Positions 8,039 to 26,498 of a stretch of DNA of 64,000 nucleotides are shown here, piece after piece. Every line of letters begins with the position of its first letter. The first letter of the stretch is position 1. The DNA comes from Clostridiaceae bacterium (lineage in GTDB: Bacteria; Bacillota; Clostridia; Saccharofermentanales; DTU023): the NCBI GenBank assembly GCA_012838135.1, contig DUPV01000063.1:1-64000 (forward strand), in the 5' to 3' direction. The translations under genes were made by a program, and so were the position numbers. The notes beneath the pieces were generated by a model, which saw nothing but the letters and a program-made list of their open reading frames with translations, had not been told where the DNA came from and ran no database searches.

Positions 8039-8782
8039 TCACATTATTGTACATCCATCCACTGCCAGTACCTGGCCCGAGACATATGTAGAGAGATCTG
8101 AAACCATAAACAGGCAAGCCTTTGCGATATCTTCCGGCTCTGCCAGTCTCCCCATGCAGATATTGTTAATCCGATTCTGCAGTTTCTCTGGGTCAGCTTG
8201 CTTCATCATATCTGTGTTCGTCAGTCCCGGAGCAATCGCGTTTACTCTTATTTTCTTCTCCGCCAGTTCTTTTGCGGCAGACTTCGTAAGAGATATTACA
8301 GCGCCTTTGGTCGCTGAATACACCAGCTGACCTCTATTCCCTCTCAACGCCGTCATGGAAGTAATGTTCACAATGCTGCCACCATTTTCCTGACGGCCCA
8401 TGATGCGGCTGACGATCTGGAGCATGTTGATGGTACCGTAGACGTTGACGGAGAACATCTTCTTCATATTGTCATGGTTTATCATACCGATAAGTTCATT
8501 GAACTCCACGCCGGCATTGTTGACCAGCCCGTCAATGTGACCGCAGGCTCTCTTGATCTGCATAACACTGTCTCTCACAGCTTTTTCATCGGAGATATCA
8601 AAGTACAAAGGCCGGACTTCACCACTTACATCCTTGTTAAACTCCTCAGACCATTCCTCCACAGATCCTTCTCGGGTTGCAACCGCATATACGATTGCCC
8701 CATTATGAGCAAAAACCTGTGAGATAGCTTTCCCGATTCCTCGGCTTCCTCCGGTTACAATACAGACTTTTCCTGCAAGCAT
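8039..8782 (-). CDS. FabG-like 3-oxoacyl-ACP reductase (SDR)
   Basis: A classical SDR of 247 residues, the normal FabG length. It has the cofactor loop TGGSRGIG at 10-17, the structural NNAG at 88-91, a Ser in ITSMT near 142, and the catalytic pair Tyr155/Lys159 in YSATK. It ends with the FabG-like SGQVLAVDGC. Of the three SDRs in the locus it is the most FabG-like. The likely reaction is NADPH-dependent reduction of a beta-ketoacyl thioester. A very strong GGGGGAGGA site precedes the start. It lies between the ligase and the carboxyltransferase genes. Confidence 0.82.
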   Translation of the reverse strand: MLAGKVCIVTGGSRGIGKAISQVFAHNGAIVYAVATREGSVEEWSEEFNKDVSGEVRPLYFDISDEKAVRDSVMQIKRACGHIDGLVNNAGVEFNELIGMINHDNMKKMFSVNVYGTINMLQIVSRIMGRQENGGSIVNITSMTALRGNRGQLVYSATKGAVISLTKSAAKELAEKKIRVNAIAPGLTNTDMMKQADPEKLQNRINNICMGRLAEPEDIAKACLFMVSDLSTYVSGQVLAVDGCTIM

Positions 8783-8794
8783 ATTCCTCCCCCG

Positions 8795-10189
8795 TTAACG
8801 CACCCAGTCCACAGCAATCTCATGCACGATCAGGTCATCTCTTCTCTTAATAAAGTCCGGAGCCACCTGCGGAAACATGGCACAGCTAAGGACATCCTCT
8901 TTCGTTTTTGCAATGTCACTGTACTGTTCCTGGATCTTATCCATTTCATTATCCAGCAGATCCGCCGGACGGCAGGTGATGACCTCGTCCTCGCCGATTG
9001 CCATCTTCCGGATCTCTTCGTTTACCTCTCCGGGTAAAGCACCGTACTCACCTCGGAGCAATCCCTTCGACTCCTTGGTAAAGCTCTGATATCTGCCCAT
9101 AAGTACATTCAGAACCGCCTGTGTACCAACAATCTGGCTGGTAGGCGTCACCAGCGGAGGATAACCAAAATCCTTCCGGACGCACGGCACTTCCTGTAAC
9201 ACTTCGTCCAGACGTTCCTCCGCATTTGCCTGCTTTAGCTGGGAAAGGAGGTTGGACAGCATTCCACCAGGAACTTGATACAGCAGTGTGTTCGGATCGA
9301 CGCGGAGAACCTTGGAGTTGATAATTCTCTCTTTCTCCATTCTTGCTGCCACGGTTTTGAAGTGCACAGCCGCCTCATTGAGCTTTTTCAGATTCAAACC
9401 TGTATCTCGAATCGTGCCCCTCATCGTTGCCACAAGTGACTCTGTATCAGGCTGGGAAGTTCCGTTTGCAAATGGCGACAATGCGCAGTCCACAATATCC
9501 ACACCAGCCATAGCAGCCATTAGATAGACCATGGATCCAGTTCCGGTTGTGTTGTGCGTGTGTAGATGTATCGGGATAGAAACCTTCTCTTTCAGCTTCT
9601 TAACTAGACTGTAAGCGTCAGCAGGCAGCAGAAGATTCGCCATGTCTTTAATACAGATGATATCTGCCTCCATCTGTTCCAGAACAACAGCCTTCTCAAC
9701 GAAGTACTCTTCGCTGTGGACAGGACTAACCGTATAGCTCAAGGCTGCTTCAACGGTTCCACCATACTTCTTCACTGCTTTGATCGAAGCTTCCATGTTC
9801 CGAACATCGTTCAGGGCATCGAAGATACGAACAACGTCAATACCGTTCTCAATCGACTTCCGGCAGAACTCATCCACCATGTCGTCCGCATAGTGGCGAT
9901 AACCAAGAAGGTTTTGTCCGCGGAGGAGCATCTGGAGTTTTGTATTCGGTAGAGCTTTCCGCAACTGTCTTAGGCGCTCCCATGGGTCTTCATGCAGGAA
10001 CCGCATGCAGGAGTCATATGTTGCGCCTCCCCAGCATTCAATGGACCAATACCCAATGCTGTCCAGCACCTCACAGGCAGGCAACATATCCTCCAGTTTC
10101 ATCCTTGTGGCCGCCTGGCTCTGATGTGCGTCACGAAGTATGGTATCGGTGATCAGTAGAGGCTTTTTAGATTCAAATAGTTCGCTCAT
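8795..10189 (-). CDS. Pyruvate/oxaloacetate carboxyltransferase, transcarboxylase-5S type
   Basis: This 464-residue protein is the carboxyltransferase domain shared by pyruvate carboxylase, oxaloacetate decarboxylase alpha and the 5S subunit of transcarboxylase. It shows TDTILRDAHQS at 14-24, the carboxylated Lys181 in IKDMANLL, and the metal ligands in HLHTHN (His210, His212). It lacks the fused biotin domain found in most oxaloacetate decarboxylase alpha chains; the biotin carrier is the separate protein encoded next door. In Propionibacterium transcarboxylase the same split is seen. It would move a carboxyl between oxaloacetate and biotin. No membrane beta subunit of a sodium-pumping decarboxylase is present. 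Confidence 0.85.
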   Translation of the reverse strand: MSELFESKKPLLITDTILRDAHQSQAATRMKLEDMLPACEVLDSIGYWSIECWGGATYDSCMRFLHEDPWERLRQLRKALPNTKLQMLLRGQNLLGYRHYADDMVDEFCRKSIENGIDVVRIFDALNDVRNMEASIKAVKKYGGTVEAALSYTVSPVHSEEYFVEKAVVLEQMEADIICIKDMANLLLPADAYSLVKKLKEKVSIPIHLHTHNTTGTGSMVYLMAAMAGVDIVDCALSPFANGTSQPDTESLVATMRGTIRDTGLNLKKLNEAAVHFKTVAARMEKERIINSKVLRVDPNTLLYQVPGGMLSNLLSQLKQANAEERLDEVLQEVPCVRKDFGYPPLVTPTSQIVGTQAVLNVLMGRYQSFTKESKGLLRGEYGALPGEVNEEIRKMAIGEDEVITCRPADLLDNEMDKIQEQYSDIAKTKEDVLSCAMFPQVAPDFIKRRDDLIVHEIAVDWVR

Positions 10190-10198
10190 TGAAAGCCC

Positions 10199-10591
10199 TC
10201 ACTTTACTTCAAAAAGTACCTCTCCGACGGAAACCGTTCCACCGACCTCCCAGTTCATTTTTGCGATGGTTCCATCCGAGGGTGCTACAATCTCATTCTC
10301 CATCTTCATGGCTTCAAGGATCAGTACAAGGTCACCAGCTTTTACTTTCGCGCCTTCGGCTTTCTCAATCCGAATTACCGTTCCAGGCATCGGAGCCGTG
10401 ACCTCACCAAGAGTGCTCACTGTGGGTTTCTGCATGGAAGGATCAATCACATTGACGTTTGCATCTCTAGCGGCACCTTTAAACTCTTTATACTCTTTCT
10501 TTGCAACAGGCTGTAGAATCGTGTCTTCAACGACCAAATCGACCTCCATCTCGTAGGTCTTCCCCTCTAAGGTGATACGGTACTTGCTCAT
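10199..10591 (-). CDS. Biotin carboxyl carrier protein, transcarboxylase-1.3S type
   Basis: A 130-residue carrier. The biotin-accepting Lys96 sits in the canonical EAMKMENEI, inside a C-terminal lipoyl/biotin fold that starts near VTAPMPGTV at residue 64. The N-terminal 50 residues ([16 protein letters not shown] onward) are typical of the decarboxylase/transcarboxylase class, and a short linker joins the two parts. Its size is close to that of the 1.3S subunit of transcarboxylase. The ATG overlaps the stop of a 59-codon ORF by the ATGA arrangement, so translation of the two is probably coupled. It would shuttle carboxyl between the 5S-like and 12S-like subunits. Confidence 0.9.
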
Positions 10592-10808: not shown

Positions 10809-12359
10809 TTACAGCGGAATATTACCGTGCTTTTTCTTCGGCAAAGTCCGCTTTTTTGTCTTCAGCATTCTGAAGGCTGCTACAATCTTGGTTCTTGTCT
10901 CTTCCGGGAGAATAACCTCGTCCACATAACCATGTTCCGCAGCGATATACGGGTTCATGAACTTATGGTTATATGCATCAAACAGTTCTTCCTTCTTTGC
11001 ACTCGGATCCTCCGCTTTTTCGATTTCTTTCTTGCCAATGATGGATACTGCGCCTGCGGCTCCCATAACAGCAATCTCTGCAATCGGCCAGGCATACACG
11101 ACATCCGCGCCGGTTCCCTTGCTGTTCATAGCAATATAAGCGCCACCATAAGCTTTACGCATAATCAAACCAACCTTCGGAACTGTTGCCTCCGAATAGG
11201 CAAACAGCAATTTAGCACCATGGCGAATGATGCCTCCATGCTCCTGCTGGCTTCCCGGAAGAAACGCAGGAACATCCACGAGGGTAAGGATTGGGATGTT
11301 GAAGCAGTCGCAAAAACGGATAAAGCGAGCGCCTTTATCTGAAGCATTGATCTCTAGGGAACCTGCCATAAACTGGCTCTGGTTTGCCACAATACCTATC
11401 GTGTTACCGTTGAGGCGTGCGAATCCAACCACAATATTCCTGGCGAAGGCCAGCTGGACTTCAAAGAAACTTCCCTCATCCACAAAGGTGTTGATGACAT
11501 TCCTGACATCATACGGCTTCTTGGAATCGACGGGCACAATGTCGCTGAGAGCCACACTGTTGTCTCTTCTTTTTCCTTCCACCGTCATCGGCTTTTCCTC
11601 ATTGTTCTGCGGGAGATAGCCGAGAAGCTGGCGTACGCCATTCAGGCATGACAGGTCATCAGGGTAGACAAAATGAGCTACACCGGATGTGGCGCTGTGA
11701 ACAACGGCACCTCCAAGATCGGTAGCGGAAATAACCTCGCCGGTCACAGACTTCACAACTGCTGGGCCTGTGATATACATCTGGCTGTTTTTTTCCGTCA
11801 TGAAGATGTAGTCGGTGATGGCAGGGGAATAGCAAGCACCGCCCGCGCAAGGACCGAGGATTACTGAGATCTGTGGAATCACGCCGGATGCGATGGTATT
11901 CCGATAAAAGATATCCGCATACCCGGAAAGGCCATCAATGCCTTCTTCAATTCTTGCTCCACCGCTATCATTGATGGAAATAAAAGGGACTTTTATTTCA
12001 AGAGCCTTGTCCATCGCACGGCAAATCTTCATTGCCTGAGCTTCCCCCAAGGAGCCCCCGGCGATAGTAAAGTCTTGGGAGGATGCAAATGCTAGTCTTC
12101 CGTGAATATAACCATAGCCGGTAACAACACCATCTCCGGGACATTTTTTCTTATCCATCCCAAAGTCTGTAGCACGTGAAGTGATCATATCATTGATCTC
12201 AATAAACGTACCATCATCAAAGAGAGCTTCCATGCGCTCACGTGCAGTAAGCTTCCCGGAAAGATGCTGCTTCGCGATACGGTCTTGGCCACCCGCCCGT
12301 GAAATGGTTCTTCGTCTCAGATTGAGACGGTCAATACTGTTCTGCCACTTTTCATTCAT
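10809..12359 (-). CDS. Acyl-CoA carboxyltransferase, 12S/MmdA/PccB type
   Basis: The protein (516 residues from the chosen ATG) is the carboxyltransferase of the methylmalonyl-CoA decarboxylase, propionyl-CoA carboxylase and transcarboxylase-12S group. Evidence includes the N-terminal LTARERMEALFDDGTFIE, the crotonase-like oxyanion loops ISINDSGGARIEEG and LGPCAGGACYSPA, and the C-terminal GGAYIAMNSKG. It would move carboxyl between biotin and an acyl-CoA, here plausibly acetyl-CoA to give malonyl-CoA, or propionyl-CoA to give methylmalonyl-CoA. A GGAG site favours the start at 12359 over one five codons upstream. The start overlaps the end of the polymerase gene. Confidence 0.86.
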   Translation of the reverse strand: MNEKWQNSIDRLNLRRRTISRAGGQDRIAKQHLSGKLTARERMEALFDDGTFIEINDMITSRATDFGMDKKKCPGDGVVTGYGYIHGRLAFASSQDFTIAGGSLGEAQAMKICRAMDKALEIKVPFISINDSGGARIEEGIDGLSGYADIFYRNTIASGVIPQISVILGPCAGGACYSPAITDYIFMTEKNSQMYITGPAVVKSVTGEVISATDLGGAVVHSATSGVAHFVYPDDLSCLNGVRQLLGYLPQNNEEKPMTVEGKRRDNSVALSDIVPVDSKKPYDVRNVINTFVDEGSFFEVQLAFARNIVVGFARLNGNTIGIVANQSQFMAGSLEINASDKGARFIRFCDCFNIPILTLVDVPAFLPGSQQEHGGIIRHGAKLLFAYSEATVPKVGLIMRKAYGGAYIAMNSKGTGADVVYAWPIAEIAVMGAAGAVSIIGKKEIEKAEDPSAKKEELFDAYNHKFMNPYIAAEHGYVDEVILPEETRTKIVAAFRMLKTKKRTLPKKKHGNIPL

Positions 12360-13578
12360 TGTCAATATCTCCATGTACTTGATTGCCGATACTTCTTTCT
12401 TTTGAATTCTTCATATAATAACCTCGTATTATTCCCCAAAACATTGCAATTGGCATAATATAATTCGATTCTTCAAAGCAATATGATGCAAATGAAAAAG
12501 CCAAAATAACACAAAACGCAAATGCCGCCGGAAGGGCTATTTCATATTTGTCTCTAATTAGTCGTAACAAGAAAACTCCCATATTAATAACAACAGATAA
12601 TAATATAATCGCTCCAACTATTCCCAAGTCATAAAGGAATTCAATATAGCTATTATGTGCGAAAATGTATTTTCCAAAAGGCCTAATAAAATTTGGAACA
12701 GCATGGAACCCATGTCCAAAAATCTTAGCTCCTATAGGTGCCTGCTTAAATTGTGAAATAATGAGATACCAAATAATTAACCGACCAGATCCTTTGTCTT
12801 CCGAAATCGCACGAAAACGATTCAGAACATTCGCTAAATAGGAATCCATAAAATGACCAGCAATGAAATAAATCAAGCAGCCGACTAAAGCAATCTTTAA
12901 GATGCTTCGAAACTTGTCTTTAGAGCTATGTCCTTGGTTTATCATCAGGATTAAGTAAATACAAAAACCACTCACAAGAGCCAGCAGTCCTGTTCTTTTT
13001 GCACTTAATACAACAAGAATTGTAGCAAAAGAAGATAGCACTATCTTTTTTTTGTCTTTACATAACAGAAGAACTAGTGGCAAATAAGAGATTGAATAAT
13101 ATACAGGTCCTGTATTAATTGAAGCCGAGAATCTAGTTATTATCGTTTTGACAAGTGCAAGGCAAATGCAAATATAACAAAACACAAGAACCTTCTCAAA
13201 ACTACTAGGTATATCCCTTTTCCTAGAGTAAGAGTAGAATACTAGATAAGTTAATGGCCAAGGAAAGGCATTTGAGATAACTTGCATGAAACTAGGGCAA
13301 AACACAAGCATGGATATAACAATTATGTATAGCAGTATCAAGTACACTTTAATTGAAGGTACGTCCACTTGTTTTTTTGCGACTAATAAAAAAAATAAAT
13401 ATACAACATCAAAAAGCAATGTCATCAATCGTGATACTAATATCATTCTTTCCCAAAAAGGGGAGGTTCCTTCTTGAAAAAACAGGATATACGATATTGC
13501 AATCAACGTCATTGATATGAGAATCATATGTAGTAGTACTTGCTCAACATCAAGTCTAGCTTTCTGTTTTATAACCAT
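12352..13578 (-). CDS. Wzy-like polysaccharide polymerase (O-antigen ligase family)
   Basis: A polytopic membrane protein of about 408 residues with roughly 10-11 hydrophobic segments and a large loop after residue 270. The stretch RLIIWYLIISQFKQAPIGAKIFGHG followed by FAHNSYIEFLYDLGIVG is the signature of the Wzy_C/O-antigen ligase family. The role is to polymerise flipped repeat units on the outer face of the membrane. I prefer the ATG at 13578, which follows CGGAGAG; the longer frame to 13611 has no ribosome site. Base composition is clearly more AT-rich than the adjoining carboxyltransferase genes, which fits mosaic assembly of the locus. Confidence 0.8.
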   Translation of the reverse strand: MVIKQKARLDVEQVLLHMILISMTLIAISYILFFQEGTSPFWERMILVSRLMTLLFDVVYLFFLLVAKKQVDVPSIKVYLILLYIIVISMLVFCPSFMQVISNAFPWPLTYLVFYSYSRKRDIPSSFEKVLVFCYICICLALVKTIITRFSASINTGPVYYSISYLPLVLLLCKDKKKIVLSSFATILVVLSAKRTGLLALVSGFCIYLILMINQGHSSKDKFRSILKIALVGCLIYFIAGHFMDSYLANVLNRFRAISEDKGSGRLIIWYLIISQFKQAPIGAKIFGHGFHAVPNFIRPFGKYIFAHNSYIEFLYDLGIVGAIILLSVVINMGVFLLRLIRDKYEIALPAAFAFCVILAFSFASYCFEESNYIMPIAMFWGIIRGYYMKNSKERSIGNQVHGDIDNE

Positions 13579-15014: not shown

Positions 15015-15254
15015 TTATAACACAACATGATACTTCGCCAAAATCTTTTTTCCATTCTCATAGGATCCATAGTGAAGTATATCTTCTGACTCAAACATGA
15101 CATCAAAGGCATCCTCAAGCTCAGAAATCAAACTAAGATGTGCCACAGAGTCCCACTGAGGAACAGCATTAAATGTAAAACTATCGTTAAGAACTGTCTC
15201 ACTTACCCCAAGCACATCTACAAATATCTTATTGTACTTTTCCAAGTTTGTCAT
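15015..15254 (-). CDS. Acyl carrier protein (first of two)
   Basis: A 79-residue carrier with the phosphopantetheine-accepting Ser36 in WDSVAHLSL. The four-helix ACP pattern continues with LISELEDAFDVMFESEDIL, an acidic helix II-III region. Size and charge match discrete type II ACPs. It has no DSL motif of the primary fatty-acid ACP, which suggests a dedicated carrier. It probably holds malonyl or beta-hydroxyacyl groups for the KAS III and SDR enzymes encoded upstream. A phosphopantetheinyl transferase is not seen in the window. It lies at the end of the KAS/SDR/ACP block, 60 bases before the glycosyltransferase gene. Confidence 0.88.
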   Translation of the reverse strand: MTNLEKYNKIFVDVLGVSETVLNDSFTFNAVPQWDSVAHLSLISELEDAFDVMFESEDILHYGSYENGKKILAKYHVVL

Positions 15255-15359: not shown

Positions 15360-15584
15360 TCAGGCTATTACCATCAGTTTCAGAATGTCAGAAACGGTCT
15401 TGAAGCCCTTGATAACATCGCCGGTAAGCTTTACGCCAAATTCATCATCCATCAGGACAATAAGGGACAGCTTCGCCATGGAATCATATTCATCAACGTC
15501 AGCAAGAACAGTATCAGTAGCTAGTGTGCCCTCGTCCAGTTCCCAAATTTCCTCCAACATTGCGATTTTTTCCTGATCAGTCAT
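15360..15584 (-). CDS. Acyl carrier protein (second of two)
   Basis: A 74-residue acidic carrier. The attachment Ser35 lies in YDSMAKLSLI, followed by the helix VLMDDEFGVKL and the helix IV start FKTVSDILKL. It is clearly divergent from the ACP at 15015, so the two are not a recent duplication and may serve different steps or loads. A strong AAGGAGGAATTAAAA site precedes the ATG. The gene directly follows a KAS III gene (30-base gap), which supports joint function. Confidence 0.88.
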   Translation of the reverse strand: MTDQEKIAMLEEIWELDEGTLATDTVLADVDEYDSMAKLSLIVLMDDEFGVKLTGDVIKGFKTVSDILKLMVIA

Positions 15585-15614: not shown

Positions 15615-16688
15615 TTATTTCACCTGGTCATCCAGGTTGTAACCGTCTTTAAAATATTCATCCGTGTGTACCAACGGAAGAATACCTGATGTGGCGATTT
15701 CGAATGCCACCGTCGCCCAGGAAAGGCCTACTCCAAAACCACAGCACAAAGCGTTAATCTTGTTTGGATCCTCTGTATCTCCATACTTATCCACAAGAGA
15801 AATTGGAATTGACGCAGATGAAGTATTCCCAAAGAGATTCATTGAAACGAGCATCTTCTCTTCAGGAAATGCTGTCTTTTTAGCCACGCGCTTCATAATC
15901 ATCAAATTAGCCTGATGTAGCACAAGGCAGTCATAATTTTCTGGCGTAGTGCCTGTCATTCCCATATATTCATTGAGTTGATTGGGCGCTTCCTCTGTAG
16001 CAAAATTAAACACAGCTATGTCATCCATCACAGCATAGTGTGTACGTCCGTCCGGAGAATCAGGGTTACGCCAGCCGCCATAAGGAGAGATGATTGCCTT
16101 ATATCTCCTGCCATCAGTATTGGAAAGGAATCTGAGTGAATTTCCATCCTCCTTCTCCAGCAATGTTGCCGTACCAGAATCGCCAAAGAGCCATGTGCCT
16201 GAACGCCCCTCTTTTTGTTTTCTGAGATTGCTGTGTTCCCTTGCAGAAGTATCTCCTGCAAGTAGGAGGCCATACTTTGTTCCAGTATTAGCAAGCAGGC
16301 AGGAAACGATATTCAAGCCATAAACAAAACCGGAACATCCAAGATTGATATCAAAGCAGATGCATTCATTGCTCAAGTCCAGCCGATGCTGGAGCACACA
16401 CGCTGTCGCGGGAATCCTATAATCACTTGTCTGTGTAACAAAAATCAGGATTCCGATCTGATTCTTGTCAATACTCTTTTCTGCAATCAACTTTTCAGCA
16501 GCAGCATAGCAGAAATCAGCGGTTGTCTGTTTGGGCGATGCAGAGTATCTTCCGGAAACCCCAGTTTTCTTAATAAACCTCTTTATAGTTACTTCATCCT
16601 CATCTGCCATTTCCTTAATAGAGTCCCATTCCGGAGATACAGCGGCGGCCATCCCAATTACTTTTACATTTTTAATCTCTGTTAACAT
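15615..16688 (-). CDS. 3-oxoacyl-ACP synthase III (KAS III, copy 1)
   Basis: A 357-residue thiolase-fold condensing enzyme. The whole KAS III triad is visible: Cys118 in NLGCSGFVYG, the His in VLHQANLMI, and the Asn in FGNTSSASIP. The N-terminus shows the family's KTGVSGRY and ADFCYAAAEKL. KAS III enzymes condense an acyl-CoA (or in some cases acyl-ACP) with malonyl-ACP to a beta-ketoacyl-ACP. It is strikingly similar to the KAS III at 17479 (both begin with a shared IIGMAAAVS-type opening), so these arose by duplication. GGAGAGG precedes the start. It is not likely to be the housekeeping FabH, given its place among polysaccharide genes. Confidence 0.88.
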   Translation of the reverse strand: MLTEIKNVKVIGMAAAVSPEWDSIKEMADEDEVTIKRFIKKTGVSGRYSASPKQTTADFCYAAAEKLIAEKSIDKNQIGILIFVTQTSDYRIPATACVLQHRLDLSNECICFDINLGCSGFVYGLNIVSCLLANTGTKYGLLLAGDTSAREHSNLRKQKEGRSGTWLFGDSGTATLLEKEDGNSLRFLSNTDGRRYKAIISPYGGWRNPDSPDGRTHYAVMDDIAVFNFATEEAPNQLNEYMGMTGTTPENYDCLVLHQANLMIMKRVAKKTAFPEEKMLVSMNLFGNTSSASIPISLVDKYGDTEDPNKINALCCGFGVGLSWATVAFEIATSGILPLVHTDEYFKDGYNLDDQVK

Positions 16689-16697
16689 TTTCCTCTC

Positions 16698-17462
16698 CTA
16701 ACATGTCGTCAATCCGCCATCCACAGGCATTGTAATTCCTGTGATAAACCTTGCAGCCGGGCTAATTAAAAACGCAATAGCGTTTGCAATATCCTGCGGC
16801 TGAGCAATCCCTAGGTACTGGCGAGTTAATAATTCTTTATTGGTTTTACTATCTTTTCCATATTTCTCAATATAGTAGTTGTACAGTTCCGTAGCTGTCA
16901 TTGACGGAGCAACCGTATTTATGCATATCTCTTTTTCCGCCAGTTCTTTCGCCATGCAGCGAACTGCAGAATCCATTGCCGCCTTGGAGGAGGAATAAAT
17001 AGCCTTAGATTTATCCCCTCTCAATGATGCGCAGGAACTCACACCAACAATCCGCATTCCTGGGTTAAAGCGTCCTTTGCGGCTGATCTGGCGCACTACT
17101 TCAAAGAATCCAAAGAAGTTCACATTAAAAGTACTCTGAACCTTTTCCGGTTTTGACTGCATGAAAGGAATCGCCATACCAACACCCGCACTATATACCA
17201 GACCATCTAAAGGGCCATCCTTCTCAACAATCTCTTTAATCATGGATTCAATGACAGCGACATCACTGACATCTGCAACAAAATAATCATGCCCTTCTCC
17301 TTCGAGGTCATCCAATACCATCTTCAGTTTCTCCTCATTTCTTGCCACCAAGGTAAGTTTTGAGCCGACCTGACTAAGTGTAATTGCAGTCTGTTTTCCA
17401 ATACCGGAAGATGCCCCGATTATCAGTATACGTTTGTTAGACAAATCTATTATTGCATTCAT
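16698..17462 (-). CDS. SDR family ketoreductase (paired with KAS III)
   Basis: A 254-residue classical SDR. It has IIGASSGIG at 14-22, YSAG at 90-93 in place of NNAG, Ser142/143 in VSSCAS, and the catalytic Tyr156/Lys160 in YSSSK. It ends with MPVDGGLTTC. The gene sits between two KAS III genes with gaps of 9 and 16 bases. The likely reaction is reduction of the beta-keto group on the ACP-bound product of its neighbour. A sugar-oxidoreductase role is possible but less consistent with the context. GGGAGAG precedes the ATG. Confidence 0.8.
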   Translation of the reverse strand: MNAIIDLSNKRILIIGASSGIGKQTAITLSQVGSKLTLVARNEEKLKMVLDDLEGEGHDYFVADVSDVAVIESMIKEIVEKDGPLDGLVYSAGVGMAIPFMQSKPEKVQSTFNVNFFGFFEVVRQISRKGRFNPGMRIVGVSSCASLRGDKSKAIYSSSKAAMDSAVRCMAKELAEKEICINTVAPSMTATELYNYYIEKYGKDSKTNKELLTRQYLGIAQPQDIANAIAFLISPAARFITGITMPVDGGLTTC

Positions 17463-17478
17463 TCAAACTCTCCCTACA

Positions 17479-18531
17479 TCAGACATTATCAGGATAATCA
17501 TCGTCATAGCGATCTTTCCCAAAGGTTAATGGAAGTATATCATCTGTATTCATCTTAACTTCCATGACTCCCCATGAAAGACCAACACCAAATCCGCTGG
17601 TCAGCATTTTTACTTCCTTGCTATCATTAGAGGCACCATACTTATCCACAATTGTAAGTGGAACTGAAGCGCCACTGGTATTTCCAAACCTGTCAAGTGA
17701 GATCGGTATTTTCTCCATCGGCATTCCTACTCGTTTTGCTATATTTTTAATGATCATCATATTGGCTTGGTGCAGGACAAGATCATCATAGCTTTCCATC
17801 TCTACTCCAAGCTTTTCAATATACTCATGAACCAATGCGGGAACTTCGTTAATGGTAAAATTGAATACAGCAATATCATCACCCGGGATGCTTTCCGGAC
17901 CAACGGGGTGCTTCCATGCGTTATAAGGTGCGGAAAGTGCCTTATGCCCGGTTCCATCACTCATCATCGCGGATTTGATACTGCAGTTTTTTTCTTTATC
18001 GAGAAGGATCGCCGAGCTTGCATCTCCAAAGAGAAGTGTCGTATTGGAACTCCTCTGACCTATGCCATATCCTTTTCTAGTCCTTGCTAAAGTATCACCT
18101 ACCAATACCAATGCTTTTTTTTCATCAGAATTCTTCAATAATCCCGCTGCAATGGACACTCCATAAACAAAACCGGAACATCCGAGATTAACATCAAAAG
18201 CAATGCAACTTTTATTCAACCCCAGTCTATGTTGCAACACACACGCAGTAGCTGGAATACCATAGTCGCTGGTCTGGGCAACAAACACAAGAACTCCGAT
18301 CTCGCTGCGATCAATCCCCTTTTCGTTTAAGATTTTTTCGGCAGCCGAAAAATAAAAGTCCGACGTACACTGTCTGGGAGCAGCAGAATACCTGCCCTCT
18401 ACTCCTGTGGTTTTGATGAACTTATTGATAATCTGCTCACCCTCGTTAGAAAGTTCCCGTACGCTGTCCCATGTATTAGAAACGGCTGCTGCCATTCCAA
18501 TAATACGAATATCTTTCAGTGCTGAATACAT
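17479..18531 (-). CDS. 3-oxoacyl-ACP synthase III (KAS III, copy 2)
   Basis: A 350-residue KAS III with all catalytic residues: Cys118 in NLGCSGFVYG, His in VLHQANMMI, Asn in FGNTSGASVP. The sequence parallels copy 1 through most of its length, including IPATACVLQHRL ahead of the active-site Cys. Both differ from the third copy. The conserved KTTGVEGRYSAAP-type region near residue 40 corresponds to the acyl-CoA pocket entry in FabH. The GGAG site is about 12 bases from the ATG at 18531. Expected reaction: decarboxylative condensation of malonyl-ACP with a starter or a longer hydroxyacyl group. Confidence 0.87.
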   Translation of the reverse strand: MYSALKDIRIIGMAAAVSNTWDSVRELSNEGEQIINKFIKTTGVEGRYSAAPRQCTSDFYFSAAEKILNEKGIDRSEIGVLVFVAQTSDYGIPATACVLQHRLGLNKSCIAFDVNLGCSGFVYGVSIAAGLLKNSDEKKALVLVGDTLARTRKGYGIGQRSSNTTLLFGDASSAILLDKEKNCSIKSAMMSDGTGHKALSAPYNAWKHPVGPESIPGDDIAVFNFTINEVPALVHEYIEKLGVEMESYDDLVLHQANMMIIKNIAKRVGMPMEKIPISLDRFGNTSGASVPLTIVDKYGASNDSKEVKMLTSGFGVGLSWGVMEVKMNTDDILPLTFGKDRYDDDYPDNV

Positions 18532-18553
18532 ATATTGTAAATACTCCTCTCTG

Positions 18554-19315
18554 TTATCCTTGGCTTATACCACCATCAATTAAGATGGATGTACCGGTTA
18601 TTGTCTTAGCCGCATCACTTAGCAGGAAAGCAACAGTATTAGCAATTTCTATAGGTTCCGTAACGCCCATATACTGTTTTTCTTTTATCTCCTGAACCTC
18701 AAATGTATCCGGATAACGATCAATATATACTTTATACATTCTCGTGTTCACCCAACTAGGCATAATAGAATTAACGCGGATTTTTTTCTTTTTCAGGTCA
18801 CAAATCAAACACCGAATAGCTCCGTCCAAGCCGGCCTTTGATGCGCTATATGCTACTTTAGATTGTTTTCCTTGAATACTCGCTGTTGAAGAAATGGCTA
18901 CAATACTGCCCTCGTCAGCAAAATAGCCTTTTTTAGTGATGCATCTCACAATTTCTATAAATGAGAACAAATTTGCATTCATGACTTCAATCATATTCTC
19001 TCTTTTTGTCATCTTTAATGGCCGCATTGGGGCAATTCCTGCGCAGAAAGCAAATCCGTGAAACATGCCGTGTTCTGTAACCATTTTCTTGATGTTCTCC
19101 TCAATTGAGTCGACATCATTCAAGTCAAGCACATGTTTTGCATGCCCCTTGCCTTCAAGCATTTCAAAAACTTTCTGCAGCTTTTCCCCATTTCTCCCAC
19201 AAATAACGACATTAGCGCCAAGTTTGCTTAACTGGATAGATGCCTCTACTCCCATCCCACCAGTGGCTCCTGTGACAAGAATTCTTTTTCCCGTCAAATC
19301 CATCGGGTTGATCAT
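18554..19315 (-). CDS. SDR family ketoreductase (paired with KAS III)
   Basis: A 253-residue SDR with the cofactor loop TGATGGMG at 15-22, CAGI at 91-94, Ser in ISSTAS near 141-146, and the catalytic Tyr156/Lys160 in YSASK. The C-terminus is ILIDGGISQG. It aligns position by position with the SDR at 16698 (same spacing of the catalytic pair), which suggests the KAS-SDR pair was duplicated as a unit. AAGGAGAGAGG precedes the ATG. A beta-ketoacyl reductase role is inferred from context. Confidence 0.8.
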   Translation of the reverse strand: MINPMDLTGKRILVTGATGGMGVEASIQLSKLGANVVICGRNGEKLQKVFEMLEGKGHAKHVLDLNDVDSIEENIKKMVTEHGMFHGFAFCAGIAPMRPLKMTKRENMIEVMNANLFSFIEIVRCITKKGYFADEGSIVAISSTASIQGKQSKVAYSASKAGLDGAIRCLICDLKKKKIRVNSIMPSWVNTRMYKVYIDRYPDTFEVQEIKEKQYMGVTEPIEIANTVAFLLSDAAKTITGTSILIDGGISQG

Positions 19316-19330
19316 TGTCCTCTCTCCTTT

Positions 19331-20428
19331 TCAAAGCATTTCCGGGGTTATTTTCCCCCCTATATAGTAGTCAGATGTCTCAGTAATAGGGTATATGTTA
19401 CCTATATTCACGGGGATACTCGTTACACCCCATGAAAGGCCTATGCCGAATCCTGCCATCAAGACTTTCTTTATTTCGCTTGCATTTTCTCCATAGGCAT
19501 CACACATTGTCAACGGAATAGATATGCCACCTGTGTTTCCATACCGATCCAAGGATATCGGAACAGTGTCTTTTATTAACTTCAGTTTCCGGACAAGTTG
19601 CTTTATGATGAATTCATTAGCTTGATGGAAAATAAAGGAGTCGTAATCGTTTATCGAGGTTTCTGTGTATTCCAAGTAATCATTAAGTGCCTTGGGAACA
19701 TCAGTTATTGAAAATGAGAACACAGACGTCCCGTCCATATAGATATCGTACAGAGACCGTTCGATTCCATCTCTGCACATGAACTTTTCATACCTAGGGT
19801 TCATGTCTCTAAAACCTCCTGCAGGAAGGATGATTGCTTTGTAACGTGATCCATCGCTTCTCAAGAGCGTCGTAGAACTTATAGATTCACTTGTCTTTTC
19901 AAGTAGGATCGCAGCACCAGCATCTCCATACATCATTACAATTGACTTATCATGTGGATCGACCAATTTTGAAGCAGTTTCGCCCATCAGTAAAAGCCCG
20001 TATTGTTGATCTGACGATGTCGATGCCATAAGACTCATAGCAGTCTGAAGTCCGTAGATGAAACCAGAGCACCCTAGATTGATCTCCATGCAAGCACAAT
20101 CAATAGGAAGATCCAATCTCTTATGAATCACGTTGGCACTTGACGGCCTTCTATAGTCTGGTGACTGTGTTACCAGTAGCATCAAACCGATGTCATCACG
20201 GTTTATCTCAATTTTTTCAAACAAACTTTCTGCCGCTGCCGTTGCCAAATCGCTGGCTGTTTGTTCTGGAAGGGCTTTATACATGGCTTTGATTCCAGTC
20301 CCTGCAGAAAACTTCGCTGGTATTTCCTCTCCAAATATACTGGAGAAGCTTTCAACGGTAATTCTATTTTTCGGGACCACACAGGTCATACCAGCTATTT
20401 TAATTCCGTTGCTTTTATAAAATGACAT
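19331..20428 (-). CDS. 3-oxoacyl-ACP synthase III (KAS III, copy 3)
   Basis: A 365-residue KAS III, the first of the three to be translated. The triad is complete: Cys120 in NLGCSGFIYG, His in IFHQANEFI, Asn in YGNTGGISIP. It is more distant from copies 1 and 2, for instance in the N-terminal IAGMTCVVPKNRITVESF. It ends 15 bases before the next SDR gene and starts one base after the hydrolase stop, so the operon is tight. It may carry out the first condensation (for example acetyl-CoA plus malonyl-ACP), with copies 1 and 2 using longer substrates; this order is inference. Confidence 0.87.
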   Translation of the reverse strand: MSFYKSNGIKIAGMTCVVPKNRITVESFSSIFGEEIPAKFSAGTGIKAMYKALPEQTASDLATAAAESLFEKIEINRDDIGLMLLVTQSPDYRRPSSANVIHKRLDLPIDCACMEINLGCSGFIYGLQTAMSLMASTSSDQQYGLLLMGETASKLVDPHDKSIVMMYGDAGAAILLEKTSESISSTTLLRSDGSRYKAIILPAGGFRDMNPRYEKFMCRDGIERSLYDIYMDGTSVFSFSITDVPKALNDYLEYTETSINDYDSFIFHQANEFIIKQLVRKLKLIKDTVPISLDRYGNTGGISIPLTMCDAYGENASEIKKVLMAGFGIGLSWGVTSIPVNIGNIYPITETSDYYIGGKITPEML

Positions 20429-21073
20429 TTACCGTCTATCCTCCACTACTTGTTGTAAGCAAAACTCCTTAAAATGTCCAGGCCATATTCTGGTTCCTTC
20501 AGGGATAGTCTTAATTCTTTTACTGCCAATTTCCTTCCACTTTTTCCGGCTTCCACCCGGCATACGAAGGTCGATCTCGCTGTTTTCCAACAAGCTATCA
20601 CCTGAGAAAAATTCTTTTCCATCCAGCATGATTCCAATGCTCCCCAATGAATGCCCCGGGATCTCAAACAGCTTAAAAACATGTCCCCACCACTTGATAT
20701 CTATTTCGTTTTCAAATGTCTGATCCGCCGAGCAGGAGTACTCCGAATCTAGCGTGGGTATTTCATCGAGTTCCATCCAAGTCTGAAGCTCACAGAACTC
20801 TTTGAAGTAATAAGCAAGGTTCTTCTTAGGATTCTTTATGTTCTCTGCACACGCCTTGCTACACAGAACCGGTGCACCAGTCATTTCTTTCCAGATATTC
20901 ACTCCCGATATGTGATCGTAGTGTTCGTGAGTCAGGATGATGTAGTCAATTTTCAATCCTTGTGCCGGTACAGTATCCTCAAAAGGATCGATTACAATCG
21001 CATGTTTACCCTCAACAATCACATACATATTAGAAGATAGAAGCTCCGACTCATACCTTTTAATCTCAATCAA
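20429..21073 (-). CDS. Metallo-beta-lactamase-fold hydrolase
   Basis: From a TTG start at 21073 the protein has 214 residues. It has the zinc motif HxHxDH as THEHYDH (His49, His51, Asp53, His54), then GHSLGSIGI, FSGDSLL and a late His in WPGHF. This is the glyoxalase II-like class. I chose the TTG because GGAGGAG lies 8 bases upstream and the TTGA overlaps the fabD stop; a longer frame starting at 21187 would run far into fabD. In polyketide loci such folds act as thioesterases or cyclases, so release or editing of an ACP-bound acyl chain is plausible. The substrate is not known. Confidence 0.75.
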   Translation of the reverse strand: MIEIKRYESELLSSNMYVIVEGKHAIVIDPFEDTVPAQGLKIDYIILTHEHYDHISGVNIWKEMTGAPVLCSKACAENIKNPKKNLAYYFKEFCELQTWMELDEIPTLDSEYSCSADQTFENEIDIKWWGHVFKLFEIPGHSLGSIGIMLDGKEFFSGDSLLENSEIDLRMPGGSRKKWKEIGSKRIKTIPEGTRIWPGHFKEFCLQQVVEDRR

Positions 21074-21996
21074 AACTGTAACTCCTCCAAAGTATTCTGA
21101 AGGGTTTTCATATTCTCCACGCGGAGAACTTTCACACCTTTGAGGGTCTTCTTCACAAGTCCAGAAAGGGTCTTTCCTGCGCCGCACTCGATGAAAGTAT
21201 CAATCCCGTCAGCCTGCATGTTTTCAAGTGTCTGGACCCAGCACACTGGACTCATAACCTGCTTAATAAGAAGCTCAGGAACTATTACACTATCCATAAC
21301 CGGTTTGCCATCGACATTCATATAGACGGGGATGGACGGATTCTGGAAGGATATCTTTTTAAACTCCTCCTCAAGTCTTTTTGCTGCCGGCTCCATTAAT
21401 GCACAGTGAAAAGGAGCGCTGACTGCCAGCTTAATGCAACGAAGACCTGCCGCTTCCGCAAGCTCACAAGCCTCGTCCACACCTACAGCTGAACCAGACA
21501 CGACTGTTTGTACCGGGCTGTTGTAGTTCGCAGCCACAACATAGCCCATTGTGACCTTAGAGCAGATCTCTTCTACCTGTTCTGCAGTTGCTCCAACGAA
21601 GGCCGCCATCGCTCCATCTCCGGGAGCTACTGCCTCCTGCATGACATCGGCACGGATCTGAACCAAAGGGAACACAGCGTCCATCGAAACAGCCCCTGCA
21701 TAAGCAAGTGCAGCATACTCTCCAAGGGAGAACCCAGCAACTGCGGTTGCATTAATACCGTGTGACTTCAGAACCTGAGCTGCAGCAAGATCACCGGCAA
21801 GCATACACGGCTGCGTATTATGCGTCAGGTTTAGATCCTCCTCAGTTCCCTCAAAGCAAACCTTGGAGATTTTTCTTCCAAGAGTAACATCAGCTTTATC
21901 AAAAAGCTCTTTTGCTGCTGGCTCAGCATCATAAAGATCTTTCATCATTCCAGGGTATTGTGCTCCCTGGCCCGAAAACAGAATTCCGATTTTCAT
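21070..21996 (-). CDS. fabD: Malonyl-CoA:ACP transacylase
   Basis: A 308-residue malonyltransferase. It has GQGAQYPGM at 9-17, the nucleophile Ser90 in GFSLGEYAALAYAG, Arg115 in QIRADVM (binding the malonyl carboxylate) and His197 in APFHCAL. The presence of the Arg supports a dicarboxylic substrate. An AAGGA site favours the start at 21996 over a start six codons upstream. It would load malonyl-CoA onto the two ACPs of this locus. The genome probably has another fabD with its primary fatty-acid genes, but that is outside the window. Confidence 0.88.
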   Translation of the reverse strand: MKIGILFSGQGAQYPGMMKDLYDAEPAAKELFDKADVTLGRKISKVCFEGTEEDLNLTHNTQPCMLAGDLAAAQVLKSHGINATAVAGFSLGEYAALAYAGAVSMDAVFPLVQIRADVMQEAVAPGDGAMAAFVGATAEQVEEICSKVTMGYVVAANYNSPVQTVVSGSAVGVDEACELAEAAGLRCIKLAVSAPFHCALMEPAAKRLEEEFKKISFQNPSIPVYMNVDGKPVMDSVIVPELLIKQVMSPVCWVQTLENMQADGIDTFIECGAGKTLSGLVKKTLKGVKVLRVENMKTLQNTLEELQF

Positions 21997-22010
21997 GTTC
22001 AATATTTCCT

Positions 22011-22661
22011 TCATTCCAATTCTTGCATTCTCTTGGCCGGATTTCCTAAGACTGTTGTACCGGCCTTGACATTTGTAAATACTATGCTGCCGGCAGCAAT
22101 ACGTGCCCCATCTCCCACTTTTTTACCGGGTACAATAAATGCGGCTCCTCCAATATTAACTTCTTTTCCAATTGTACATTCGCCGCTTATACGTGTTCCC
22201 GGCATTATTGTTGTAAATTCACCAAGGACGACATCATGTCCCAATACCACTCCATCATTTAACAATACACCATCTCCGATTGTACAATTAACCGATATTC
22301 CTACATTCCAATATAGTACACAGCCATTCCCAATTTGAGCACAACCAGAAATACCTACCGATGGAGCAATAATTGTCTCGAACTGCACACCTTGCTGTGT
22401 GAGTGTTCTTTGTATTTCTGCTTTTATTGATGCTTCACCTACTGTACATGTACAGACAACGTCATCTTTATGATTAAGAATCCAATTTCTGTCTCCAAGC
22501 CAAGGATATCCATTGATAAAAGTTTTATGATTGAATTGTTTTCCATCATCTAAAAATCCAAGCAATTCATACTTTTTTTCTCTTTTATTGATGCTCTCAA
22601 TCATATGGGCAACTTCTCTCCCAAAACCACCGGCGCCGATAAGTACAATTTTCTTTACCAC
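22011..22661 (-). CDS. PglD/NeuD-family sugar acyltransferase
   Basis: A 216-residue protein with the two-part build of this family. A Rossmann-like N-terminus (IVLIGAGGFGREVAHMI, residues 4-20) leads to a left-handed beta-helix with many [V/I]GxGxxL hexads from residue 90. PglD N-acetylates the 4-amino group of UDP-4-amino sugars; NeuD O-acetylates sialic acid. The catalytic His is expected at the GHDVVLG stretch near 138. It starts with GTG at 22661 behind AAGGAG. Because fabD is next in the operon, this enzyme is a good candidate to transfer an unusual acyl group to an amino sugar. Confidence 0.82.
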   Translation of the reverse strand: MVKKIVLIGAGGFGREVAHMIESINKREKKYELLGFLDDGKQFNHKTFINGYPWLGDRNWILNHKDDVVCTCTVGEASIKAEIQRTLTQQGVQFETIIAPSVGISGCAQIGNGCVLYWNVGISVNCTIGDGVLLNDGVVLGHDVVLGEFTTIMPGTRISGECTIGKEVNIGGAAFIVPGKKVGDGARIAAGSIVFTNVKAGTTVLGNPAKRMQELE

Positions 22662-23241: not shown

Positions 23242-23874
23242 TTATTCAATATCACTTCCCATAAATTCATCCATTGTTGCTTCTCCGGTTGCGGATATTC
23301 CTTCCTTCTTCAAAACTGTTCTAACTGTCTCAAAAATAATCTTCCAGTCCCCAAGAAATGTGATGTGATCCACATATTTGATGTCCCATTCAAATTTATC
23401 TTCCCAACTGATTGCATTCCTTCCGCGAACTTGAGCAAGCCCCGTAAATCCCGGCCGAACTTCATGTCTGCGTGCCTGGTGCTCGTTATAACGAGGAAGA
23501 TAGCGAACAAGCAGCGGGCGCGGGCCGACAACACTCATATCACCCTTTAGCATATTGAAGAGTTCAGGAAGCTCATCAAGGGATGTAGAACGAAGTTTCC
23601 GTCCAAAAGATGTAAGGCGCACTTCATCCGGGAGCAGCTTTCCGTTCTCATCCTTCTCGTCCGTCATCGTGCGGAATTTATAAAGCTTGAATATCCTCCC
23701 GTCTTTTCCTGGTCTATCTTGCGGGAAAAGTACCGGACTTCCTAACTTAGTTCTCACAAGAATCGCAGTTACAATCATCACCGGAAAAAGAATGATGGTT
23801 GCAAGTAGCGCACAGATAAAATCCTGTGGTCGTTTTAGAAACCTCTCATATGGTCCATATGGTTTATGTGTCAT
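23242..23874 (-). CDS. PglC-type initiating phosphoglycosyl transferase
   Basis: A 210-residue monotopic sugar-phosphate transferase of the small PglC class. One hydrophobic segment at about 18-38 is followed by KLYKFRTMT, then RSTSLDELPELFN and the strongly conserved KGDMSVVGPRPL near 118-129. The Asp-Glu pair in LDELPE is the family's catalytic dyad. It moves a sugar 1-phosphate from a UDP-sugar to undecaprenyl phosphate and so starts each repeat unit. Small PglC-type enzymes often take UDP-bacillosamine derivatives or similar amino sugars, which agrees with the PglD-like and PglE-like neighbours. GGGAG precedes the ATG. Confidence 0.9.
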   Translation of the reverse strand: MTHKPYGPYERFLKRPQDFICALLATIILFPVMIVTAILVRTKLGSPVLFPQDRPGKDGRIFKLYKFRTMTDEKDENGKLLPDEVRLTSFGRKLRSTSLDELPELFNMLKGDMSVVGPRPLLVRYLPRYNEHQARRHEVRPGFTGLAQVRGRNAISWEDKFEWDIKYVDHITFLGDWKIIFETVRTVLKKEGISATGEATMDEFMGSDIE

Positions 23875-24990: not shown

Positions 24991-25113
24991 TCACCTAAAA
25001 CACCCATGGATAATCTCAATAATCCTATCCTGTTGCTCAGCAGTCATCTTGTTGTCGCTGGGCAGGCTTAACCCTCTGCGTAATATATCAGCACCAACGT
25101 TTACGCCGCTCCC
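24991..25113 (-). pseudogene. DegT/DnrJ aminotransferase, C-terminal remnant
   Basis: The last 40 codons of a 76-codon frame read VNVGADILRRGLSLPSDNK followed by MTAEQQDRIIEIIHGCF. They match the C-terminus of DegT-family aminotransferases, including the intact one at 25351, whose end is KIFKKGLCLPSDTKMT and DRVVDIVCRMF. The lysine- and PLP-binding parts are missing. The sequences differ enough to show this is not a recent copy. The scar shows that an older aminotransferase gene stood here and was replaced or cut by recombination. Confidence 0.75.
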
Positions 25114-25350: not shown

Positions 25351-26466
25351 TTACTTAAACATCCTACACACAATATCCACAACCCTATCAATATTCTCAT
25401 CGGTCATTTTTGTATCAGACGGTAAGCATAATCCTTTTTTAAAGATTTTATCTGATACGCCATTGCCGATGAAATCACAATCCTTAAATACGGGTTGTAA
25501 ATGCATTGGTTTCCAAATTGGTCTTGCCTCAATCTTATGTTTTGCAAGTTCATTGATTATATCTATCGGTTTAATTGTATCTGATTTTAAACTGATAACA
25601 GAAAGCCAATGATTTGAATAGTCGCCCTGCTCAAGATTATCCGGCCCCATCTCAATATCCGAGATATTCTTAAAGCCTTCTTTATACTGTTCGAAAATAT
25701 AGCGTTTTTTCTCTACGCGAGCTTTTAATACCTTTAATTGGCCACGACCTATGCCGGCAACAATATTGGACATCCGATAATTGTAACCAATTTCTTCATG
25801 ATGATACCAAGGTGCTTTCTCTCTTGCCTGAGTTGCCCAAAACTTAGCTTTCGCGATGCCTTCCTTTTTTTCAGAAACTAACATACCACCGCCGGAAGTC
25901 GTAATGATCTTATTGCCATTAAAAGAAAATACACCGTAATCGCCGTATGTTCCTGTCCATTTGCCCTTATAAACAGTTCCTAAACTTTCTGCAGCATCTT
26001 CAATCAACGGAGTATTATGTCGCTTGCAAATTGCTTTAATCTTATCTATTTTAGCCGATATGCCATAGAGATGAACAGCAATCACAGCTTTCGGTGTGTA
26101 TTTTTGAAAAGCTTTTTCCAGCAGTTGCGGATCCATATTCCAGGTATCTTTTTCCGAATCAATAAATACAGGAATAGCTCCTTCATAAACAATCGGATTT
26201 GCACTTGCTGAAAAAGTTAAGCTTTGACAAAAGACAGTATCTCCTTGTTTTACGCCAACTGCTTTGAGAGCTAAATGGATTGCTGCTGTACCGGATGCCA
26301 AAGCAACCGCATACTTTGAACCTATTATCGCAGACAGTTCTTGTTCAAAACCGTCAACATTTGCCCCCAGCGGCGCAATCCAATTCGTGTCAAAGGCCTC
26401 TTTTATATAAGCTTGTTCATACCCTTCATCACTCATATGTGGTGAAGATAAATATATTTTTTTCAT
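25351..26466 (-). CDS. DegT/DnrJ/EryC1/StrS-family aminotransferase (PglE-like)
   Basis: The protein (371 residues from MKKIYLSSPHM) is a PLP-dependent sugar aminotransferase. It shows APLGANVDGFEQEL near 32, the cofactor Lys in FSFNGNKIITTSGGGM near 180, and LIEDAAESLGT near 153 with the Asp that contacts the PLP nitrogen. PglE-type members convert a UDP-4-keto-6-deoxy sugar to the 4-amino sugar. The GAGAG site supports the start at 26466 rather than six codons upstream. Together with PglC-like and PglD-like genes it suggests a bacillosamine-type precursor. The 4,6-dehydratase (PglF) is not in the window. Confidence 0.87.
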   Translation of the reverse strand: MKKIYLSSPHMSDEGYEQAYIKEAFDTNWIAPLGANVDGFEQELSAIIGSKYAVALASGTAAIHLALKAVGVKQGDTVFCQSLTFSASANPIVYEGAIPVFIDSEKDTWNMDPQLLEKAFQKYTPKAVIAVHLYGISAKIDKIKAICKRHNTPLIEDAAESLGTVYKGKWTGTYGDYGVFSFNGNKIITTSGGGMLVSEKKEGIAKAKFWATQAREKAPWYHHEEIGYNYRMSNIVAGIGRGQLKVLKARVEKKRYIFEQYKEGFKNISDIEMGPDNLEQGDYSNHWLSVISLKSDTIKPIDIINELAKHKIEARPIWKPMHLQPVFKDCDFIGNGVSDKIFKKGLCLPSDTKMTDENIDRVVDIVCRMFK

Positions 26467-26498
26467 GCAACATCTCTCATACATATAATATACATCAT

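Follow-up and report, generated by a model that had tools for sequence, protein, structure and literature searches.

A dedicated acyl carrier protein pathway with three KAS III-like enzymes probably supplies a short beta-hydroxy chain to a capsule sugar in a Clostridiaceae bacterium

A capsule gene cluster of a Clostridiaceae bacterium probably (about 0.7) encodes a dedicated acyl-acyl carrier protein (ACP) pathway that makes a short beta-hydroxy chain and uses it to N-acylate an amino sugar of the capsule. The cluster lies in the window, the 64,000-nucleotide stretch of contig DUPV01000063.1 analysed here. This reading rests on gene content, active sites, enzyme lineages, gene company, the absence of FabF, FabZ and FabK and the loss of CoA-holding residues, from which we infer the substrates, the reaction order, the chain length and the acceptor sugar.

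The core of the module is a tight operon in which all genes lie on the minus strand, with intergenic gaps of 9–30 bp from KASA to ACP1 (Table 1). The order KAS–SDR–KAS–SDR–KAS–ACP–ACP described in an earlier note on this DNA (KASA, SDRA, KASB, SDRB, KASC, ACP1 and ACP2 in the direction of transcription) is borne out by the coordinates, by Pfam, which confirmed three ACP_syn_III/ACP_syn_III_C proteins, two SDRs and ACP1, and by intact catalytic residues. Cys-His-Asn is kept in 128 of 128 sequences, including all three KAS proteins of the window, and Asn-Ser-Tyr-Lys in all three of its SDRs. The Pfam search gave no match for ACP2, which is alignable to ACP1 over the DSx serine. Both carrier proteins fall just beyond the range named in the note (15615–20428). 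The FabG-like SDR said to lie elsewhere in the window is indeed there; this protein, FabG3, groups in the tree with the genome's own FabG and not with SDRA or SDRB. The module thus has two reductases (SDRA and SDRB), or three with FabG3.

Table 1. Genes of the acyl module and its neighbours, in window coordinates.
Feature	Coordinates	Strand	Assignment and evidence
DegT	25351..26484	-	DegT/LegC-family sugar aminotransferase (PglE-like); PF01041, E 1.6e-95
PglC	23242..23874	-	PglC-like polyprenyl-phosphate sugar-phosphate transferase (initiating); PF02397, E 5.5e-60
PglD	22011..22661	-	PglD/NeuD-family sugar N-acyltransferase; TIGR03570; PF17836 and hexapeptide repeats
FabD	21070..22014	-	second FabD (malonyl-CoA:ACP transferase); TIGR00128, 275.8 bits, above cut-off 260.9
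MBL	20429..21187	-	metallo-beta-lactamase-fold hydrolase; PF00753, E 3e-15
KASA	19331..20428	-	KAS III-like condensing enzyme; PF08541/PF08545; Cys-His-Asn; tree; model
SDRA	18554..19315	-	3-ketoacyl reductase-like; PF13561; N-S-Y-K; trees
KASB	17479..18531	-	KAS III-like condensing enzyme, B lineage; Pfam; trees
SDRB	16698..17462	-	3-ketoacyl reductase-like, the family's common SDR lineage; Pfam; trees
KASC	15615..16688	-	KAS III-like condensing enzyme, C lineage; Pfam; trees
ACP1	15360..15584	-	dedicated acyl carrier protein; DSM serine; PF00550
ACP2	15015..15254	-	second carrier protein; WDSVAH serine
12S	10809..12374	-	carboxyltransferase, 12S/PCCB type; PF01039, E 5e-185
BCCP	10199..10591	-	biotin carboxyl carrier protein, AMKM site; PF00364
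5S	8795..10189	-	5S/oxaloacetate-decarboxylase-type carboxyltransferase; PF02436 and PF00682
FabG3	8039..8782	-	third SDR, FabG-like by domain/family models; tree
AMP ligase	6548..7966	-	AMP-forming acyl ligase; PF00501, E 1e-31

The earlier note overlooked the PglD, FabD, MBL, transcarboxylase, aminotransferase and phosphoglycosyl transferase genes, which assign the module to the N-acylation of a capsule sugar; it also overlooked the complete FAS on another contig. PglD scores 176.2 bits with TIGR03570, above the cut-off of 160.8, and its solved relatives are PglD and VioB; the cluster's FabD is distinct from the housekeeping FabD of the genome. The adjoining 12S-, 5S- and biotin-carrier-type genes make up a transcarboxylase (12S/5S/1.3S) gene set, which recurs in three related loci (L023, L123 and L124), and the nearest solved relatives of the 12S protein are propionyl-CoA carboxylase beta (1vrg) and transcarboxylase 12S (1on3). 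The MBL hydrolase, whose true start is probably nearer 21070, is a possible thioesterase, and the AMP ligase, which many related loci have beside FabG3 and ACP2, possibly loads a starter onto ACP2.

The company of the KAS genes was counted within 8 kb in 79 loci fetched via a relative of a window KAS. ACP and SDR genes were each found in 72 loci, which indicates a KAS–ACP–SDR association beyond chance, and PglD was found in 52, DegT in 40, PglC in 26 and MBL in 17; the same constellation recurs across Firmicutes, Bacteroidota and Proteobacteria. Three loci with ACP–KAS–SDR and neither PglD nor DegT detected nearby (L042, L045 and L047) might suggest that the product is a small-molecule metabolite or a storage polyhydroxyalkanoate and that the location in a capsule cluster is accidental. 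We consider this improbable, given the PglD and DegT counts and the single operon in which the KAS module is flanked by PglD/FabD on one side and glycosyltransferase/Wzy on the other.

The window holds no FabF, dehydratase or enoyl reductase, as the earlier note correctly stated: whole-genome searches with PF00109 and PF07977 matched only contig C40, plus a thiolase on contig C1, and nothing in the window, where a search for FabK also found no match. Contig C40 carries a complete housekeeping FAS operon (ACP-AccB-AccC-AccDA-FabH-FabK-FabD-FabG-FabF-FabZ), and the capsule cluster repeats its FabD, KAS, ketoreductase and ACP but not FabF, FabZ or FabK. A complete type II FAS, with FabF, FabZ and an enoyl reductase in the set, is found on C40 and not in the window. 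Among the related loci searched, FabF and FabK occur in none and FabZ in one only (L054). These loci, and the analogy with the wfp genes of Flavobacterium psychrophilum (PMC6519341), support the prediction that the chain stops at the beta-hydroxy stage. Against the pathway proposed below, the housekeeping FabZ and FabK could act on intermediates of the module if the carriers are not insulated.

The window KAS proteins share the fold and the Cys-His-Asn triad of canonical FabH; the predicted structure of KASA has the FabH fold (pLDDT 92.4), and the best solved relatives are 4efi, 3gwa and FabH entries. They differ from canonical FabH in scoring 177, 174 and 169 bits with TIGR00747 (fabH), under its cut-off of 292, in lacking Trp32, Arg36 and Arg249, and in being ~30–50 residues longer. 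Acyl-pocket residues were compared by alignment, with numbering from what we take to be the E. coli FabH sequence, checked for its length (317) and for C112, H244, N274 and F87. In FabH, Trp32 and Arg151 stack the CoA adenine (PMC4606726). Trp32 is absent from KASA, KASB and KASC, in which position 151 is K, S and R, respectively; Trp32 and Arg249 are gone in 127 of 127 relatives, and both are present in the genome's own FabH. Because of this uniform loss, which bears on the donor indirectly, ACP-bound starters and a private ACP seem likelier than acetyl-CoA for these enzymes. The statement that the window has no elongating KAS is misleading, since proteins that score below the fabH cut-off and have lost the CoA-holding residues may well elongate acyl-ACP. 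At positions 86–87 the KASA lineage carries Arg-Arg or Arg-Lys, and it mostly has Tyr157 and Gly276; B and C differ from it in these residues.

In the proposed pathway, the transcarboxylase would perhaps supply malonyl-CoA, and FabD would load malonyl onto the cluster's own ACP. KASA would condense first, using a starter bound to ACP, either acetyl-ACP or an acid put on ACP2 by the AMP ligase, and an SDR would reduce the keto group. In a set that lacks both a dehydratase and an enoyl reductase, KASB and KASC would each add one extension to the hydroxyacyl chain, the keto group being reduced between the two, giving a series from 3-hydroxy through 3,5-dihydroxy to 3,5,7-trihydroxyoctanoyl-type chains. 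DegT would make a UDP-4-amino-4,6-dideoxy sugar, with the 4,6-dehydratase encoded elsewhere in the genome; a PF02719 (CapD/PglF-type) protein is encoded on contig C8. PglD would take the chain over from ACP and attach it to the sugar's 4-amino group, PglC would start the repeat unit on the acylated sugar, and Wzx/Wzy would complete the polymer. We count against the pathway a locus with a C-type KAS and no KASA across its 21 kb (L030), two three-KAS loci arranged otherwise than the window (L035 and L088), an Arg in KASA at the Phe87 position of the acyl-pocket region, a residue not readily reconciled with an acetyl starter, and the DegT score with TIGR04181 (NCBIfam, LegC family) of 381.7 bits, under the cut-off of 420.

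One-, two- and three-KAS loci all exist. The one-KAS loci of Clostridium symbiosum ATCC 14940 (L038), C. transplantifaecale (L046) and Eubacteriales S27M (L043) share the backbone of the window (DegT-PglC-PglD-(FabD)-MBL-KASA-SDRB-ACP1-ACP2-FabG3-AMP ligase, with PCCB downstream), but from MBL to ACP1 they have only KASA and one SDR, without KASB, KASC and SDRA. Several two-KAS loci combine KASA with B or C, whereas the window has A, B and C: an uncultured Ruminococcus has KASA-SDRB-KASB (L025) and Clostridia RGIG1839 has KASA-SDRA-SDRB-KASC (L023), with enzymes close to those of the window (KASA 72%, SDRB 70%, KASC 64%). This range of loci, and a 3,5-dihydroxyhexanoyl-linked two-KAS relative, support as possible the suggestion of one extension per KAS. 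A C8 product is a tentative prediction, well short of even odds, as the length is projected from a single two-KAS case in which the gene roles are themselves predicted; otherwise the product would be C6 or a mixture. A literature search for a trihydroxyoctanoyl glycan found none.

The same pathway might instead run without one extension per KAS and yield C4–C6 chains or a mixture, to which we give somewhat less than an even chance. One KAS, most likely KASA, would then form the starter or use an acid loaded through the AMP ligase and ACP2, or alternatively the other two KAS proteins would be alternatives with different starters. The KASA residues at 86–87, 157 and 276 are consistent with this, as are the co-occurrence near KASA of ACP2 with the adjoining FabG3 and AMP ligase (L028, L036, L038, L043 and L046) and the loss of Trp32 in all KAS proteins, which means that an ACP-bound starter needs a source. 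However, KASA retains its catalytic triad, and in several loci it is the sole KAS, with one adjoining SDR, and must condense there.

The KAS–SDR pairs had also been taken for a duplicated unit, and trees of both families were proposed as the check; these trees reject paired duplication, with AU tests against KASB and KASC as sisters (p = 0.00019) and against SDRA and SDRB as sisters (p = 1.6e-59). It is thus very improbable that KASB-SDR and KASC-SDR arose from a single unit by tandem duplication and are functionally redundant, as their interleaving with SDRs and the KASB–KASC identity of 49%, against 35% to KASA, might suggest. Each enzyme has nearer relatives in other genomes, and SDRA is a rare lineage, common to L023 and L027, whose members accompany KASC and not KASB. 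Duplication within this lineage is refuted; an old one predating the spread of the family is possible. In multi-KAS loci, each KAS is nearer to a KAS of another locus than to its partner (47 of 47), which points to fixed, position-specific roles. KASA, KASB and KASC belong to separate old lineages, the first of which also occurs alone, and the window unites B and C, which other loci carry singly.

Among close relatives of the bacterium, the family search gave matches at E 1e-50 in 1 of 38 genomes, the window's own. As to a viral or plasmid source, viral contigs held no relative, and plasmid matches were all below 60% identity, most often from Streptomyces and Azospirillum. A locus with many KAS genes next to FAS genes in the same genus (G004 L017) is alike at first sight but is not the same cluster, being set apart by a 3-hydroxyacyl-CoA dehydrogenase-like gene, other KAS types and another gene order.

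More speculatively, and on present grounds doubtfully, chain length might be set by the count of KAS lineages in a one-use assembly line (C4, C6, C8) that is ACP-primed and insulated from FAS, of which the window would be a recombined three-step version making a 3,5,7-trihydroxyoctanoyl decoration. If so, the acyl decoration could be predicted from sequence alone, according to which KAS a capsule or O-antigen cluster has and how many, and a set of small stand-alone enzymes building polyol chains of defined length would be at hand. Because loci with one, two and three KAS occur naturally, this counting rule can be put directly to the test.

In F. psychrophilum, wfpC–wfpG encode two KAS, one 3-ketoacyl-ACP reductase, an ACP and a PglD homologue in a Wzy-dependent O-polysaccharide cluster with pglE/pglF; 3,5-dihydroxyhexanoyl on Qui2NAc4N was established by NMR, the wfp gene roles are predicted, and the acyl decoration contributes to antigenicity (PMC6519341). 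Likened by gene composition as described, the two systems have 3-ketoacyl-ACP synthases, ACP, reductase and PglD in common. The window contains the elements of a wfp-type module (at least two KAS, a ketoreductase, an ACP, PglD and a Wzy-type cluster), and two Flavobacterium loci (L052 and L084) have the same composition. The window differs from wfp in its three KAS, its two reductases plus FabG3, its two ACPs, its Gram-positive capsule-type cluster, and its own FabD, transcarboxylase and AMP ligase. Whereas the two-KAS 3,5-dihydroxyhexanoyl module is known, the three-KAS version uniting the B and C lineages is new.

The window module, ordinary in kind and unusual in extent, has three KAS III-like condensing enzymes (KAS) and belongs to a capsule and O-antigen acylation family whose loci mostly encode one or two. 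The gene order KAS-SDR-KAS-SDR-KAS-ACP-ACP, described in the earlier note, is present on the minus strand, where the condensing enzymes KASA, KASB and KASC are interleaved with the reductases SDRA and SDRB and followed by the carrier proteins ACP1 and ACP2, with intergenic gaps of 9-30 bp from KASA through ACP1. Cys-His-Asn is found in all three KAS, and Asn-Ser-Tyr-Lys in all three SDRs of the window, the third being FabG3. Upstream of the module lie genes for FabD, an MBL-fold hydrolase, the sugar N-acyltransferase PglD, a PglC-like initiating transferase and a DegT/LegC-like sugar aminotransferase, and downstream those for GT2, Wzy, a 12S-type carboxyltransferase, a biotin carrier, a 5S-type carboxyltransferase, FabG3 and an AMP ligase.

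Positions of the module and of accompanying features in the window and in related loci
Sequence	Position	Strand	Feature
Window	20428 to 15015	-	KAS-SDR-KAS-SDR-KAS-ACP-ACP module
Window	24991-25221	-	Short ORF; end resembles the C-terminus of the adjoining DegT aminotransferase (GLSLPSDNKMT..)
Window	23950-24774	-	HTH_3 protein flanked by the aminotransferase and PglC genes; its long C-terminal region is uncharacterised
Window	211-561	-	Small ORF bordering the capsule cluster; reads like an accessory transposition protein of IS66 type
L017	3182-10954		Gene group immediately following the housekeeping FabH: an SDR, several KAS III-like genes and one resembling 3-hydroxyacyl-CoA dehydrogenase
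L043	19934		Gene reading, by eye, like holo-ACP synthase

The short ORF listed in the table is probably what gene exchange has left of a second aminotransferase gene. The HTH_3 protein is a candidate regulator; proteins weakly similar to it occur upstream of the same genes in two related loci (L038 and L046).

A KAS-alignment scan of GTDB genomes yielded 79 related loci (L numbers), spread over Firmicutes, Bacteroidota, Proteobacteria and others. Within 8 kb of a KAS, these loci encode an ACP (72/79), an SDR (72/79), PglD (52/79), DegT (40/79) and PglC (26/79). No FabF, FabZ or FabK was found in the window, as the earlier note had stated for FabF, FabZ and an enoyl reductase. Contig C40 of the same genome carries a complete FAS operon (ACP, AccB, AccC, AccDA, FabH, FabK, FabD, FabG, FabF and FabZ), and the window cluster thus duplicates the carrier and the enzymes for loading, condensation and ketoreduction, and omits FabF and the enzymes for dehydration and enoyl reduction. 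Because FabF and FabK are each found in none of the 79 related loci and FabZ in just one, this omission is a family trait. A KAS III-like group in a same-genus genome (L017) has a gene order unrelated to that of the window module.

The predicted model of KASA (pLDDT 92.4) adopts the FabH fold, and the window KAS score 169-177 bits against a fabH cut-off of 292. Arg249 of FabH, an ACP-docking residue, and Trp32 are absent from all 127 relatives, and both are kept in the genome's own FabH. Trp32 stacks on the adenine of CoA in FabH (PMC4606726). The relatives also share an Asp at FabH position 84 (127/127) and, in 117 of 127, a Tyr at position 85. We infer that the window KAS start from ACP-bound substrates and rely on a private ACP; this would account for their being insulated from FabZ and FabK. 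Where FabH has Phe87, KASA has Arg and both KASB and KASC have Ile, which suggests that the acyl pockets differ among the KAS, without naming their substrates.

To the earlier note, KAS copies 1 and 2 and the two interleaved SDRs looked like a duplicated unit. Phylogenetic analysis contradicts this: KASA, KASB and KASC each belong to a clade of their own, their nearest clade members all being in other genomes (72%, 58% and 64% identity, respectively), and the union of KASB and KASC is rejected (AU p 0.00019). Similarly, SDRA groups with L027 and L023 (76%) and SDRB with L025 (70%), and their union is rejected (p 1.6e-59). Furthermore, in all 47 loci with at least two KAS, each KAS is closer to a KAS elsewhere than to its partner in the same locus. 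The separate clades and this pattern therefore rule out redundant duplicates. The KAS lineages instead look like distinct roles long maintained, of which the B and C lineages are joined in the window. The locus was found in no other genome of the source's family, as expected if the capsule cluster is exchangeable.

FabD of the window cluster exceeds the curated cut-off. Together, the 12S and 5S proteins and the biotin carrier look like a transcarboxylase, which could yield malonyl-CoA from oxaloacetate and acetyl-CoA; the trio is also present in L023, L123 and L124. ACP2, FabG3 and the AMP-forming ligase occur together in many loci and constitute a conserved trio adjoining KASA (L028, L036, L038, L043, L046 and L050); this trio, the least understood part, may load a starter.

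The related loci form a series. KASA-SDR-ACP-ACP, with one KAS, occurs in C. symbiosum, C. transplantifaecale and Eubacteriales S27M; KASA-SDR-KASB in L022 and L025, with the same set in another order in L024; KASA-SDR-KASC-type in L028, L029 and L036; KASA-SDRA-SDRB-KASC in L023; and A-SDRA-B-SDRB-C in the window. One KAS was counted in 28 of the 79 loci, two in 49 and three in 2, some counts being lower bounds owing to contig ends, and both three-KAS loci are arranged otherwise than the window. A trihydroxy product of C8 length is a reasoned extrapolation, to which we assign about one chance in three.

In the O-polysaccharide of Flavobacterium psychrophilum, NMR showed a 3,5-dihydroxyhexanoyl group on Qui2NAc4N (PMC6519341), a precedent that supports the polyhydroxyacyl chain proposed in the earlier note. 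By analogy, it also supports an amino sugar of the capsule as the destination of the window module's acyl chain; a CapD/PglF-type protein is encoded on contig C8 of the same genome. The F. psychrophilum cluster, in which the authors predicted wfpC and wfpE to encode KAS, wfpD an ACP, wfpF a reductase and wfpG a PglD (PMC6519341), contains the same kinds of parts as the window cluster: KAS, ACP, reductase and PglD.
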